Source: Isoetes taiwanensis (Eukaryota; Streptophyta; Lycopodiopsida; Isoetales; Isoetaceae). Taken from it: 64,000 nt of DNA. Positions 23,054-47,174 of the stretch are shown piece by piece. A program made the translations under genes and the position numbers. The stretch spans positions 3,697,799 through 3,761,798 of the forward strand of contig JAJEKV010000040.1 in NCBI GenBank assembly GCA_021234155.1, given 5' to 3'. Below the pieces are notes generated by a model. It was not told the origin of the DNA. It saw only the letters and a program-made list of their open reading frames with translations, and did no database searches. Every line of letters begins with the position of its first letter. The first letter of the stretch is position 1.

Positions 23054-23199
23054 CAGAGAGAGAGAGAGAGAGAGAGAGAGAGAGAGAGAGAGAGAGAGAG
23101 AGAGAGAGAGAGAGAGAGAGAGAGAGAGAGAGAGAGAGAGAGAGAGAGAGAGAGAGAGAGAGAGAGAGAGAGAGAGAGAGAGAGAGAGAGAGAGAGAGA
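23054..23199. repeat. (GA)n microsatellite, LINE array left border
   Basis: About 73 uninterrupted GA units. Its left side is non-LINE DNA (…CCATTGCAC); its right side is the 3' end of TC-tailed LINE copy A. It is therefore both the leftmost remnant of the target microsatellite and the TC tail of copy A. Confidence 0.95.
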
Positions 23200-23420
23200 T
23201 GAGATGAAATGTTGTATTTATTACGTCTGTAGACCACCAGGTCTATGAGACGATCAATGTACATATTCAACGTTATAAAAGATATCCTCTAATGCATCTT
23301 CTGACAAGAATGCATTAGACTCTTCCCATCTCTCATCATGTATAACATTACAATCTTTAATACTCATTAACTGTTCTCAATATTTCCTTCAAGTATTTCC
23401 CAATGTGATGTCCGTGCATA

Positions 23421-26400
23421 TCAAAGAATTCCAAAGAAAGATTTTGAGTGGATACCGTACTTATCTCGAATTCTCGAGTATGTTCGGCACCTTTTTACGA
23501 TGACATGCAATTCATCTTCTACTTCTCCCATATTGCATACTTTGCAAAATCTCAATTCATGGGGAATATTACTCCAACATCCTACTTCAACCCCAAGCCT
23601 ATGGGAGCTAAGCCGCATCCCCTTATCATCCGTCTGGCCAAAAGACACACCTTCCTTTGAGGTATTTGGCCTCTTGGAGAGTGGGATTTATATACCGCCT
23701 ATAGAAATGTTTTTTGTCTCCTGGACTCTCCAGCTTTTTCTAATGAGGTGCTCATGCACCCACTCTCTTAGGTTGCCCTTATTCTCACGTATACCATGAA
23801 TGTCCATCCCCCACTTCCTCATCCATTCCCTAATATCCGAAAGTACCATCCCTTGTCTCTTTTGTCTCTTCTAATGCTAGCCTTGGTAAGCTATCTTCCG
23901 GCATATCAAATAGCAACTTAGAGAGATATGTGTTGTTCGCATAAGGCTTCACCTCTAGTGGCATCATGCCACACTCTACAAGCAAAGATATCATATGGGG
24001 TTTGAGCTTTTAGTACCCAATTCTGTTCTCAAGAATTTCTTCTCTCACTTTCTCAACCTTTTTCCAGATTCTACAGATAATCCCGCCCCCATACTTCACA
24101 CCCATAGAGCAAAACTGTTTGGACCAAAGACACGATATAATGTACGCCTGTGGGCTAAAGTCCCATATTTCTCGCTTTTTCCACTTTTACGCCATGATGC
24201 TATATAATGCTTTCAGCCTCCATTTACTCTATGCTCAACAAATAGAGTTCCAGCTTATACCCCTTGTCCACATGTATCCCTAGATACTTATATGAGGTGA
24301 CAATTTCCACGTGTTCTCCATGATAGAGGAATTTAAGATGATCTACTTTATTTGTCCCAAATACCATCATCTTAGTCTTTGACATATTTACCTTCATACT
24401 TTTCTGTTCACAGAAATGTGCCAGCGCATCTAAATGCTTCTGCATGCCTTCCACTGAACGGGAAAGAAGAACAACATCATCAGCATATAAGAGCAAATGT
24501 AACCATGCATCTAAACAATGGGGTCCCCTCCCCGCCATATTCGGACATCCAAGCCCGTGGTTGGTCTATGAATAGGCCAAATAGTGTGGGCGACAATGGG
24601 CACCCTTGCTTCACTCCAATATTACTTTCTACCACATCCGCGCAATGCTCAATGTAGGGGGATGATAGTTGTACCAAGACTTTATCATAAAGTATCTTCA
24701 CTGCATGCCTAAGCTCAATTGGTACCCCTAGGGACTCCATTCTCTCCCATAAATTGCCACGAGATACCGTGGTCAAATGCCTTAGCATAATCAACAAAAG
24801 AGCATAAAGGGTTTTTCTTACCCTTAACCGAATCAACCATAGCTCGCAAAGTAACCAAATGATCAATCAGATCTTTTTTTTGTCTAAAGCCCCGCCTGTC
24901 CAGTGGCTCTAACATTATGTTTTTCAGCCCAGTGTGCTCAATTTACAATTCAAAGATAGCAAAGAAATAATTTGGCATATAAACTACTAACCCGTAATCA
25001 TTCGGTAGTTTCCGGATCATTCTCATCTCCAAATTTTATGCAAGGGGATAACTCGTTCACCGCCAAGTCGCGAGGAAAACCTTTATGCAAAACATTGTTA
25101 AATAATGACAACAATGCAACATGTATTGAGTTACCCGCCCATTTGAACATTTCAAATACCAGCCCAATTGAATCAGCCGCTTTCCCATTGGCAAGATGAT
25201 GACTTAACCCTTCTTCTAAGTCTTCCAAATCAAAGCACCAAAATTTTACATCCCGTAAGTCAATATTACCTACATTGGCCTCCGCATGTGATACTGACTT
25301 ATGCACTTGGCTTACTAAAGCCATGGTTTCCAGTGGATCTCCCCGCTTCATCTTAGGCTTAAGCTCATTCCGAATTTTTTTTTTTTGGGATCTCGCTATA
25401 GTGTCACGGATCAGCTCCTGTTGTCTCTGATACACATACTTTTTCTTTTTTGATTTCGTGAGTGCAAAATATTCTTTCTTTAATCTCTGCCTATCTTTCC
25501 CCTTTGCCCGCTTGAATGCCTCTCTTTTTTGCTCTACAAGACGATCAAACCAACTATTGCATGGCAACCCCTTCATCTTTCTACGTGAGACAAAACAATC
25601 AGTGGCAACATCTAGAACTAACTCTGCAATCTTGTCACTTAATTTATCAGTGTCGCTGGGCCAATTTGTTGTGGAGGCTCTAGCCTCACACTTCTTCATA
25701 TAGCTTTCCACCTTATGATATTTCATACTGAATGCAGGCTTAGAGACACAACGTGCCTGGTGGCATGTGTAATTCTTGGTGCTTAACACAACTGTTATCG
25801 GTGTATGATCTGAGATCTTTTCCATCTCTTCCCCTATAGACATATGTAACACCTGTTCTGCAAACTGGGATGTAGCAAGAACGAGATCAACAACACTTGC
25901 ATTTCTGCATGTGCACTTACCTGTACCTGGAAACCTCTGTGTGCCATTATAAACCAATAAATCAAGCCTCACGCACATATTAAGCACATGGTTGCCTTGG
26001 GGTGTAGGCCATCTTATTCTATCTGGCTGTGGTTCTACTCCATCCTTCCCGGGATACTTCCTTATCATCAAGCATCTCAACCCATACGGGATCCCTTCCA
26101 TGCTAGCGATAGTCTGCTTGTTTGGTAGCAATGCGGCGCTTGAAATCTCCTAGTAAGAGAACATCACCATCCGGCAAAGAATGAAAGCACATCCCGTTTC
26201 TAAGCTAAAAAGGGGTCATCCCGATCCGTGGGTCTCAATCATAAATCGGTGATTCTCTCGGGCGAAAGTAACATCCCGCCACAAAGATCTTACCTTTTCG
26301 CCATGTAACTCCACCCGGATATGCTGCAATGATCCTCTTTCATTCATTATTTTTACCGGTGTTTCATGCCCGACCTTACATAGCATGCAATCCCGCCATG

Positions 26401-46400: not shown

Positions 46401-46960
46401 CTCAAAATATCTTGTTCCAATTCAAAAAAGATATCATCCCCTGTGGCTCCATCTGAATAAGCCTTTTTATGACGTGGTGCAAAATAGCATGCAGCTAAAA
46501 ATATCATACCAGATGGGCGAGTTATCTGTATCCATACATATTGATTGTTTATGTCCTTTTTACATGCAGCCACTAAGTCTGAGTATTGATCTCTAATGTA
46601 ACAAGCCACTCCACCATTTCCAATATCATTTCCTGTGTGCCTTTTATTCTTCACGGATGTCACCAATGTGAATCCATCAATGTCTGGCAAAGCATAGAGG
46701 TCATGTTCTTTTGTTTCTAAAAAGCATATTATGTCAATGTTTTCCAATTCGTCCTGCATACTCAGGATTTTTGTCTCCGTCAATTTATTTATATTCCAAA
46801 CCATTATCCTGAGTGCCTCCCATCTTTCCTATTCCTCAATGATCACCTTGCCTTTGACCCATTTTGCTTTTTGATTGTTTTGTCTGGCTTCCTTATACTT
46901 AGCAATTTCTACTTTCTTTTCTGCTAGCTGCTCTTTGGTTAGATCCTCATTGATCCAAAT
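43453..46960 (-). mobile_element. TC-tailed LINE copy F, truncated within ORF1
   Basis: On the minus strand the copy begins in the last part of ORF1 (IWINEDLTKEQLAEKKVEIA…VKGKVIIEE, stop at 46829). ORF2 follows from ATG 46804 after 24 nt. Its 3' end has GTCTTATAGGCCCTGGGAGG…AAAAAGACG and several CACTTC units before the TC tract. The junction of truncated ORF1 with the AG repeat at 46960/46961 is abrupt. It belongs to the same subfamily as copy C. Confidence 0.92.
43870..46804 (-). pseudogene. LINE ORF2 of copy F, frameshifted
   Basis: The endonuclease is open over 280 residues (46804-45962): MVWNINKLTETKILSMQDEL, IICFLETKEHDLYALP, CYFAPRHKKAY, VILTGDFNGRTGNKQASIH, CRARSVVDYLIISRDD and ESDHVPIRFSL, so all main APE-type motifs are readable. 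The linker and RT start lie in another frame (46007-45273; GLQCKSWYDQACRIAKRKWR, LANGKAKDQNRICAEHLKNG). RT and post-RT are in 45030-43870 (SNIGVKQGCPF, LLLYVDDVVLFARS, GAEIWGPGLPQGSWDDIEQV). Breaks near 45960, 45270 and 43870 make it a pseudogene. The catalytic box is YVDD. Confidence 0.9.
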
Positions 46961-47174
46961 AGAGAGAGAGAGAGAGATAGAGAGAGAGAGAGATATATAT
47001 ATATATATATAGAGATATAGAGAGAGAGAGAGATATATATATATAGAGAGAGAGATATATATATATATATATATATATATATATATATATATATATATAT
47101 ATATATATATATATATATATATATATATCAATATAGAGAGAGAGAGAGAGAGAGAGAGAGAGAGAGAGAGAGAG
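46961..47174. repeat. Compound (GA)n/(TA)n/(GATA)-like microsatellite, LINE array right border
   Basis: GA runs at 46961-47010 and 47133-47174 enclose TA runs (46993-47010, 47034-47044, 47055-47128) with short AGAG breaks. The right flank (GTCTAAAGTATAGAGC) is non-LINE DNA. This is the outermost remnant of the microsatellite on the 5' side of the LINE array. Confidence 0.93.

Follow-up and report, generated by a model that had tools for sequence, protein, structure and literature searches.

Structure of the LINE array

The stretch of Isoetes taiwanensis DNA analysed here (contig JAJEKV010000040.1, positions 3,697,799 to 3,761,798; 64,000 nucleotides, in the following the window) carries an array of about 24 kb (window positions 23055–47174) composed of long interspersed nuclear elements (LINEs) and TC/GA microsatellites. 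The array is a head-to-tail stack of seven LINE copies and a remnant of about 43 bp, all on the minus strand, in the 5′ to 3′ order G, F+E2, E1, D, C, miniature copy, B and A. Homology of the copies to open reading frame (ORF) 2 was mapped by tblastn with the protein P0001, reverse transcriptase (RT) and endonuclease domains were identified by Pfam, and the tract coordinates were obtained with Tandem Repeats Finder. All tracts and copies described below are given as read on the minus strand.

A compound (TC)n/(AT)n tract (46961–47174) forms the upstream edge. Copy G (43453–46960) is 5′ truncated in ORF1, has an open endonuclease domain (45965–46828) and is separated from the following element by a (TC)62 tract (43329–43452). 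This following element consists of an upstream half (42457–43328), which is 5′ truncated in the endonuclease at the TC tract, and a downstream half (37857–39740). Between both halves a conventional plant L1 is nested (approximately 39741–42456), which has a poly(A) tail and an A7CGGATGCATTT target duplication, lies outside the TC tracts and serves as an in-place comparison. A preliminary description of the locus had listed the two halves as separate copies F and E2; they are one element split by the poly(A) L1, and E1 (36376–37856) is a different copy. The minus-strand location and the miniature copy given in that list were retained. E1 lacks its 5′ part and is joined in frame to E2 at TCTCTGAGAAGG (37840–37875, fusion point at about 37857). 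The 3′ end of E2 was lost at this fusion, which contains only a few TC bases, and the join may be the product of a deletion or of an insertion.

E1 is followed by a (TC)65 tract (36245–36375), copy D (35268–36244; 5′ truncated after the RT core) and a (TC)75 tract (35117–35267). Copy C (30645–35116) is near full length, with the ORF1 start 11 nt from the 5′ junction and a broken ORF2. A (TC)43 tract (30559–30644) separates it from the miniature copy (30516–30558), which comprises only the last 43 nt or so of a 3′ end with ATTTC-type units. Next are a (TC)8(CCCT)n tract (30467–30515), copy B (27781–30466; 5′ truncated in the endonuclease), and a tract of (CCTC)n followed by (TC)8 (27728–27780), which mirrors the one at 30467–30515 and is at the same time the 5′ flank of A. 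GGGA-type tetranucleotide repeats were called by Tandem Repeats Finder within both of these tracts (27729–27780 and 30467–30512). Copy A (23205–27727) is full length, with a leader of about 200 nt, an ORF1 of 305 aa (26607–27521) and a broken ORF2, and a (TC)n tract (23055–23204) forms its 3′ flank and the outer edge of the array. Thus, the array of minus-strand LINE copies in TC/GA microsatellites was confirmed, with corrections to the list of copies.

Junctions of the copies

All visible 5′ junctions (7/7) and all visible 3′ junctions (7/7) in the window lie in TC or TCCC tracts, the exception being the internal E2/E1 fusion. As E2 and E1 are fused without a TC tract, the earlier wording that nearly every junction falls in a GA/TC or GGGA tract is correct. 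Five long pure (TC)n tracts of 86–151 bp are present, four of them between copies and one at the downstream edge. Perfect GA runs of at least 12 nt occur exclusively inside the array, and no TC run of at least 12 nt was found on the plus strand of the 64 kb window. Consequently, all tracts share one orientation.

The 14-mers flanking the 5′ ends match TC at 14/14 positions in six of seven cases; the seventh, at copy B, is (CCCT)n and reaches 11/14. At the 3′ ends five of seven reach 14/14, while copy A has 9/14 (TCTCATCTCTCTCT, followed by pure TC) and copy B 10/14 within (CCTC)n. Among the 39,672 14-mers outside the array none reaches 13/14 matches to TC, two reach 12 and 11 reach 11. Copy B is surrounded by one compound microsatellite, with (TC)8(CCCT)n on its 5′ side and (CCTC)n(TC)8 on its 3′ side. 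These matched repeats are the footprint of a split target, as expected if B split one compound microsatellite.

Relationship of the copies

A maximum-likelihood tree was calculated for 60 relatives, nine window copies, human L1 and R2. The nine copies include two related LINEs outside the TC tracts, H1 and H2 (3.5–11.6 kb); a third, fragment I (48.5–49.6 kb), was left out of the tree. The array copies form one clade (support 100) adjacent to P0001, and H1 and H2 fall into another clade. Within the array clade three subfamilies are resolved, {A,E2} (I), {C,G} (II) and {B,E1,D} (III), which are interleaved along the array in the order G(II) E2(I) E1(III) D(III) C(II) B(III) A(I). Nucleotide identity among window copies is 65–74% where blastn aligns them, and values of 83–99% are restricted to alignments that take in a tract. 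Synonymous sites are saturated in 21 of 21 array pairs, and the non-synonymous divergence (dN) ranges from 0.22 to 0.68, both being rough values since codons were paired through alignment to a distant relative. Judged from the coding sequences, saturation and dN point to separate source lineages, which would have been under purifying selection and have split long before they met in the array.

The copies also differ in their state of decay. Frameshifts and stops per 1000 codons amount to 0 in B, 5–7 in E2 and E1, 8–17 in C and G, and 21–34 in A and D, counts that lean on distant reference proteins and are therefore rough. Because less decayed copies sit between more decayed ones, growth did not proceed from one end of the stack. 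The 5′ truncation of B, D, F/E2 and G lies at a different place in each. The view that the array is not a simple segmental duplication, put forward in the preliminary description, is borne out by three diverged, interleaved subfamilies with different truncation points and different decay. Copy B was considered as an intact element and rejected, as its open frame of 867 codons lacks the YADD catalytic block. Each of the others is truncated or interrupted by frameshifts or stops, and thus no copy in the window looks competent.

Conserved 3′ end and encoded proteins

Six complete 3′ ends show an outer GUCU/AGAC helix and an inner hairpin, GACC/GGUC or GGCC/GGCC, the latter difference being a two-sided change between subfamilies. 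The folding z score is below −3 in five of the six. Downstream of the hairpin come AATAC or AATAAATAC and then approximately two to six ACTTC/ATTTC units. In the window the tails consist of (ACTTC)n or its ATTTC variants; in the genome sample described below, for which the search motif required one such unit, they are (ACTTC)n. A poly(A) tail, the mark of the plant L1 clade, is absent from the array copies. Since the conserved end consists of the hairpin and (ACTTC)n, TC starts only beyond it. A new TC tail left behind by the element, as proposed earlier, is therefore not demonstrated: what is conserved is an (ACTTC)n end, and a split target can account for the TC on either side. H1, H2 and I have a 3′ structure unlike that of the array copies; outside TC tracts, H2 and I have a terminal (ATTCT)n or (ATTC)n, and the tail of H1 is missing at its join to H2.

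The array copies are APE-type non-LTR (long terminal repeat) retrotransposons, i.e. LINEs, with RT, an APE-type endonuclease and 5′ truncation combined with a conserved 3′ end. Pfam RVT_1 was found in 5 of 10 ORFs scanned (E 1.4e-08 to 2.1e-28). The endonuclease is recognised by its Pfam domain in copy G and by an APE-type fold in the predicted model, and the endonuclease of TRAS1 ranks with the best structural matches to this model. The best relative of ORF2 in the protein collection is P0001, with 41% identity over 95% of the frame of copy B. Relatives from named species among the 120 matches listed are from liverworts (Calypogeia, Riccia), a fern (Adiantum) and yew (Taxus). In phmmer comparisons the RT scored nearly equally with R2 (53.7 bits) and human L1 (50.7 bits), which were also the only reference elements in the tree; membership in Tx1 or L1 is thus without support. 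This applies to the Tx1 affinity considered in the preliminary description as well, with no Tx1 sequence among those compared.

ORF1 of copy A gave no Pfam match above the cut-off, and a search with a two-sequence ORF1 alignment gave no homologs at E ≤ 0.001. Its AlphaFold model, with a mean predicted local distance difference test (pLDDT) score of 48.3, was too poor for use. In IMG/VR no relatives were found by the 3′-end motif, and the protein search gave a single pattern match, which tblastn did not confirm.

Insertion sites in the genome

The genome (1,658,258,908 bases in 1,110 contigs) was searched with the query GACGNAANAATACANTTCACTTC, allowing two mismatches. This 3′-end motif gave 522 matches, compared to 6 with the pattern reversed. 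Since the motif stops at ACTTC, it does not select for TC; it does select for subfamilies with that end. The first 30 exact matches in contig order were taken as a sample. Two of them (L014/L015) are one duplicated locus, 92% identical over 7 kb, and were merged, leaving 29 loci.

Judged by eye, 22 of these 29 loci have a tract of TC, TCCC or mixed pyrimidines as 3′ flank, among them L018 with 13 nt of TC. When fixed rules were applied to all 30 matches, 17 showed a TC match of at least 12/14 and 22 had at least 16 pyrimidines in the next 20 positions. For the 5′ ends, stretches of 7 kb were used for the first 20 matches except L013, and 3-kb loci for the rest. Junctions were placed by homology breaks or by the first ORF matches; for L012, L017, L023 and L026 the criterion was a leader or ORF1 start that follows closely on the tract. 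Among 21 placed loci, 15 have the 5′ junction at a pyrimidine tract (L010, L011, L012, L013, L014, L017, L018, L021, L023, L026, L027, L029, L030, L032, L033). In a further one, L028 (= L057), the 5′ end abuts the ATTTC tail of the copy before it, with no tract in between. L013 repeats the pattern of copy B, with CCCT repeats on both sides.

According to these data the preference for pyrimidine microsatellites is genome-wide and strong, is not absolute, and extends to TCCC and mixed pyrimidine tracts. The earlier claim that purine microsatellites are the target of this LINE is thus supported by both flanks. Two findings had been named beforehand as speaking against it, namely unrelated DNA at most 5′ junctions, or an array arising by one tandem duplication; neither was encountered in the part examined.

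Stacking recurs at other loci. Within 1.5 kb downstream, 12 of 30 loci carry a LINE ORF of the same strand, nine at 34–70% identity to window proteins and three at 27–32%, and 3 of 30 carry one of the opposite strand (25–33% identity). In L021, L025, L029, L031 and L037 a copy starts in mid-ORF2 right past the tract. Four consecutive copies are present in L055, and L030, L032, L033 and L050 have upstream neighbours. Consecutive 3′-end pairs less than 50 kb apart, as counted by eye among 100 of the 522 matches listed, are on the same strand in 13 of 13 cases; two of these pairs belong to this window and five to what appears to be a segmental duplication on contig C1030. The single orientation noted earlier holds for the window stack, and both orientation and stacking are found elsewhere.

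In the C1030 region (G000:C1030:10208632-10283661) six 3′ ends, all of the same strand, are spaced in a repeating pattern, as though a LINE stack had undergone segmental duplication. Further very short copies consisting of a 3′ end only after a TC tract, like the miniature copy of the window, were seen at L033 (approximately 1545–1590) and L030 (approximately 1390–1523, oriented). In L058 (2107–2955, oriented) five successive TC tracts of 16–200 bp, long and very uneven in length, lie upstream of one copy.

Interpretation of the array

We consider it probable that the array was formed by a LINE lineage with an APE-type endonuclease that inserts preferentially in (GA/TC)n, and also in (GGGA/TCCC)n, with its sense strand on the pyrimidine strand. 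The endonuclease would nick the GA strand, and the resulting …GAGA-3′ end could pair with the pyrimidine-rich …CUUC tail of the RNA and prime reverse transcription at the hairpin-marked 3′ end. Synthesis stopping early would give rise to 5′ truncation. Leftover tract on either side would remain a target, and later, unrelated insertions would stack head to tail in the same direction. Insertion only splits a tract, yet tracts of 86–151 bp separate several copies; some regrowth of tracts is therefore likely, by slippage or by synthesis during insertion. A wider proposal, which we put forward tentatively and hold to be rather doubtful, is that of a plant LINE lineage with at least three long-lived subfamilies that share a pyrimidine target and renew it on insertion, by regrowth of the tract during target-primed synthesis from the CUUC tail or afterwards, so that self-extending one-way LINE islands would arise at many sites and the element itself would make a heritable landing pad.

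Several observations weigh against a pyrimidine-targeted LINE lineage. The 3′ flank is without a tract in 7 of 29 loci (L010, L011, L019, L020, L023, L024, L036) and the 5′ flank in 5 of 21 placed loci (L016, L019, L020, L022, L025), although some of these tract-less 5′ ends may be interrupted by other elements; L019 and L020 have a tract at neither end. The earlier notion of purine microsatellites as the target has to be changed to a preference. The 5′ ends of eight of the 29 loci (L009, L024, L031, L034–L038) are unplaced, the 5′ tracts of L010, L026 and L027 are short (approximately 8–20 bp), and tracts were called by eye. L017 and L028 (= L046 and L057) are on different contigs and may not be independent: their 3′ flanks share 380 bp at 85% identity though their 5′ ends differ. 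Without L028 the 3′ count is 21/28. Inside the microsatellites neither a target-site duplication nor an empty site is readable, and (GA)n runs directly into AGTG at only four of seven window junctions (C, D, E1, G). The hairpin of copy G is insignificant on its own (z −1.36; helix in the centroid only), and the non-target comparison in the same genome consists solely of the window copies H2, I and the nested L1. The flank common to L017 and L028 is a duplicated junction or a common flanking repeat.

Insertion independent of the endonuclease offers a different account of the preference. (GA)n tracts would form triplex DNA and break, and LINEs entering at such breaks would reflect a property of the DNA rather than of the element. 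The mixed range of motifs (TC, TCCC, polypyrimidine) suits a structural property as well as a sequence, and the available part of a 2025 review (PMC12477314) ties the microsatellite preference of plant elements to unusual DNA conformation. We nevertheless regard this as unlikely. The orientation is fixed relative to the pyrimidine strand, and H2, I and the nested L1, located in the same window, do not use tracts. Endonuclease-independent L1 insertions commonly lack the 3′ tail, which is kept at 7 of 7 visible 3′ ends in the window.

Quite unlikely, too, is an origin of the stack as a template-jump concatemer, in which a single event would have copied several RNAs in series, the polymerase jumping from each 5′ end to the next pyrimidine-rich tail. 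The TC tracts would then be RNA-borne tails or products of slippage and not targets. Such jumps would yield one orientation, TC between the units and variable 5′ truncation, and direct joins do exist (the L057 copy on its ATTTC tail, the H1/H2 pair and the E2/E1 fusion). A single event is difficult to reconcile with a decay of 0 to 34 disablements per 1000 codons and with less decayed copies between more decayed ones, a pattern that RNAs of decayed copies could partly mimic. Moreover, the CCCT motif shared by both flanks of B, and likewise of L013, presupposes a tract that was already there, and the outer 5′ edge of the array is a TC/AT tract as well. L018 and L013 have a tract on both sides and no LINE ORF was found downstream of them (within 1.5 kb and 0.5 kb, respectively).

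Tandem duplication or unequal crossing-over between TC tracts, building the array from one or two insertions, is very improbable: TC tracts are prone to unequal exchange, the six C1030 matches (10.21–10.28 Mb) are spaced like a segmental duplication and L014/L015 are duplicates, but the window copies are 65–74% identical, saturated at synonymous sites, unequally truncated and of three interleaved subfamilies, by which this origin was rejected for the window as far as the data go. Misjoining of LINE–TC ends across simple repeats has hardly any likelihood either, since, although TC tracts are hard to assemble and some matches are on short contigs, the window is free of N, the assembly comprises 1.66 Gb in 1,110 contigs, the matching CCCT repeats on either side of B favour a correct join, and a false join could alter neighbours but not the fact that every copy begins and ends at a tract.

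Comparison with known elements

LINEs that insert into microsatellites are known from animals. The available part of PMC4640811 describes Togen of fish, which targets (TG)n, and some HERO families, and states that target-specific elements of the Tx1 clade carry an APE-type endonuclease. The array copies are like the animal elements in that they insert in a simple repeat. They differ in their plant host, in a looser specificity (TC, TCCC and mixed pyrimidine), in the (ACTTC)n tail and in forming recurrent head-to-tail stacks of mixed subfamilies. No affinity of the RT to L1 over R2 was seen. Two members of the Tx1 clade, Kibi and Koshi, target (TC)n and (TTC)n, respectively, the target of Kibi being the same TC repeat as in the array; both were reportedly described by Kojima and Fujiwara in 2004. 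Among green algae there are retroelements with (CA)n targets, which our literature search did not return.

One-way head-to-tail stacks made by repeated targeted insertion, as is probable for the array, are known from telomeric and self-stacking LINEs: the HeT-A/TART arrays of Drosophila, according to the accessible literature, and TRAS1. Zepp of Chlorella is a self-stacking LINE with the same one-way head-to-tail arrangement. In contrast to HeT-A/TART, TRAS1 and Zepp, the array stacks are split by TC tracts, and the stack in the window is without polar growth.

In plants, the SaTars of guayule and rice target microsatellites and form linear arrays in which none interrupts another, according to the available text of PMC5907723. 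Microsatellite targeting and linear arrays are thus common to SaTars and the array LINEs. SaTars as described there are small non-autonomous DNA transposons of the MULE type, whereas the array units are LINEs that code for RT and endonuclease, have unequal ends and do not qualify as MULEs; in addition, their orientation is fixed, their 5′ truncation varies and their 3′ ends are conserved. Conventional plant L1 elements have the APE endonuclease and RT in common with the array LINEs. Almost all L1s of flowering plants have a poly(A) tail and some plant L1 lineages a conserved 3′ stem-loop, as stated in the accessible part of PMC3747384. The array LINEs, in contrast to conventional plant L1, have neither poly(A) nor a readable target duplication and end in a hairpin followed by (ACTTC)n.

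In the open PMC literature, as covered by titles and the beginnings of abstracts and with most papers of subscription journals outside that scope, no plant LINE with a TC/GA target was found. We read as new here a plant LINE lineage with an APE endonuclease that combines a pyrimidine-microsatellite target with recurrent stacking; microsatellite LINEs of animals and the microsatellite-targeted arrays of SaTars were already known. Target-specific LINEs are best known outside plants. They inform the design of insertion tools and the theory of how parasites spare their hosts, and a plant lineage with a simple-repeat target would supply hundreds of natural junctions from which rules of priming and of tract growth could be derived. 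(GA)n tracts serve as markers and occur in plant promoters. If our interpretation is true, mobile elements would be tied directly to the spread and length of such tracts. On microsatellites as landing pads, the available part of PMC3411680 holds general remarks only.

Other features of the window

The H1/H2 pair (3540–11600, minus strand) is itself a head-to-tail join without a microsatellite, H1 stopping at its 3′ hairpin. An insertion at approximately 5.04–10.22 kb, with CTGACG-type repeats near both of its ends, interrupts H2 at codon 640/641 (P0001 numbering). Tandem 22-mers (CCCTTTAATAGCCCACTTTTTA, GCATTTGGTGGTCCATTGAAGG) at 49973–50203 adjoin LINE fragment I. The flanking exons in the window resemble an amino-acid transporter and eIF3c.

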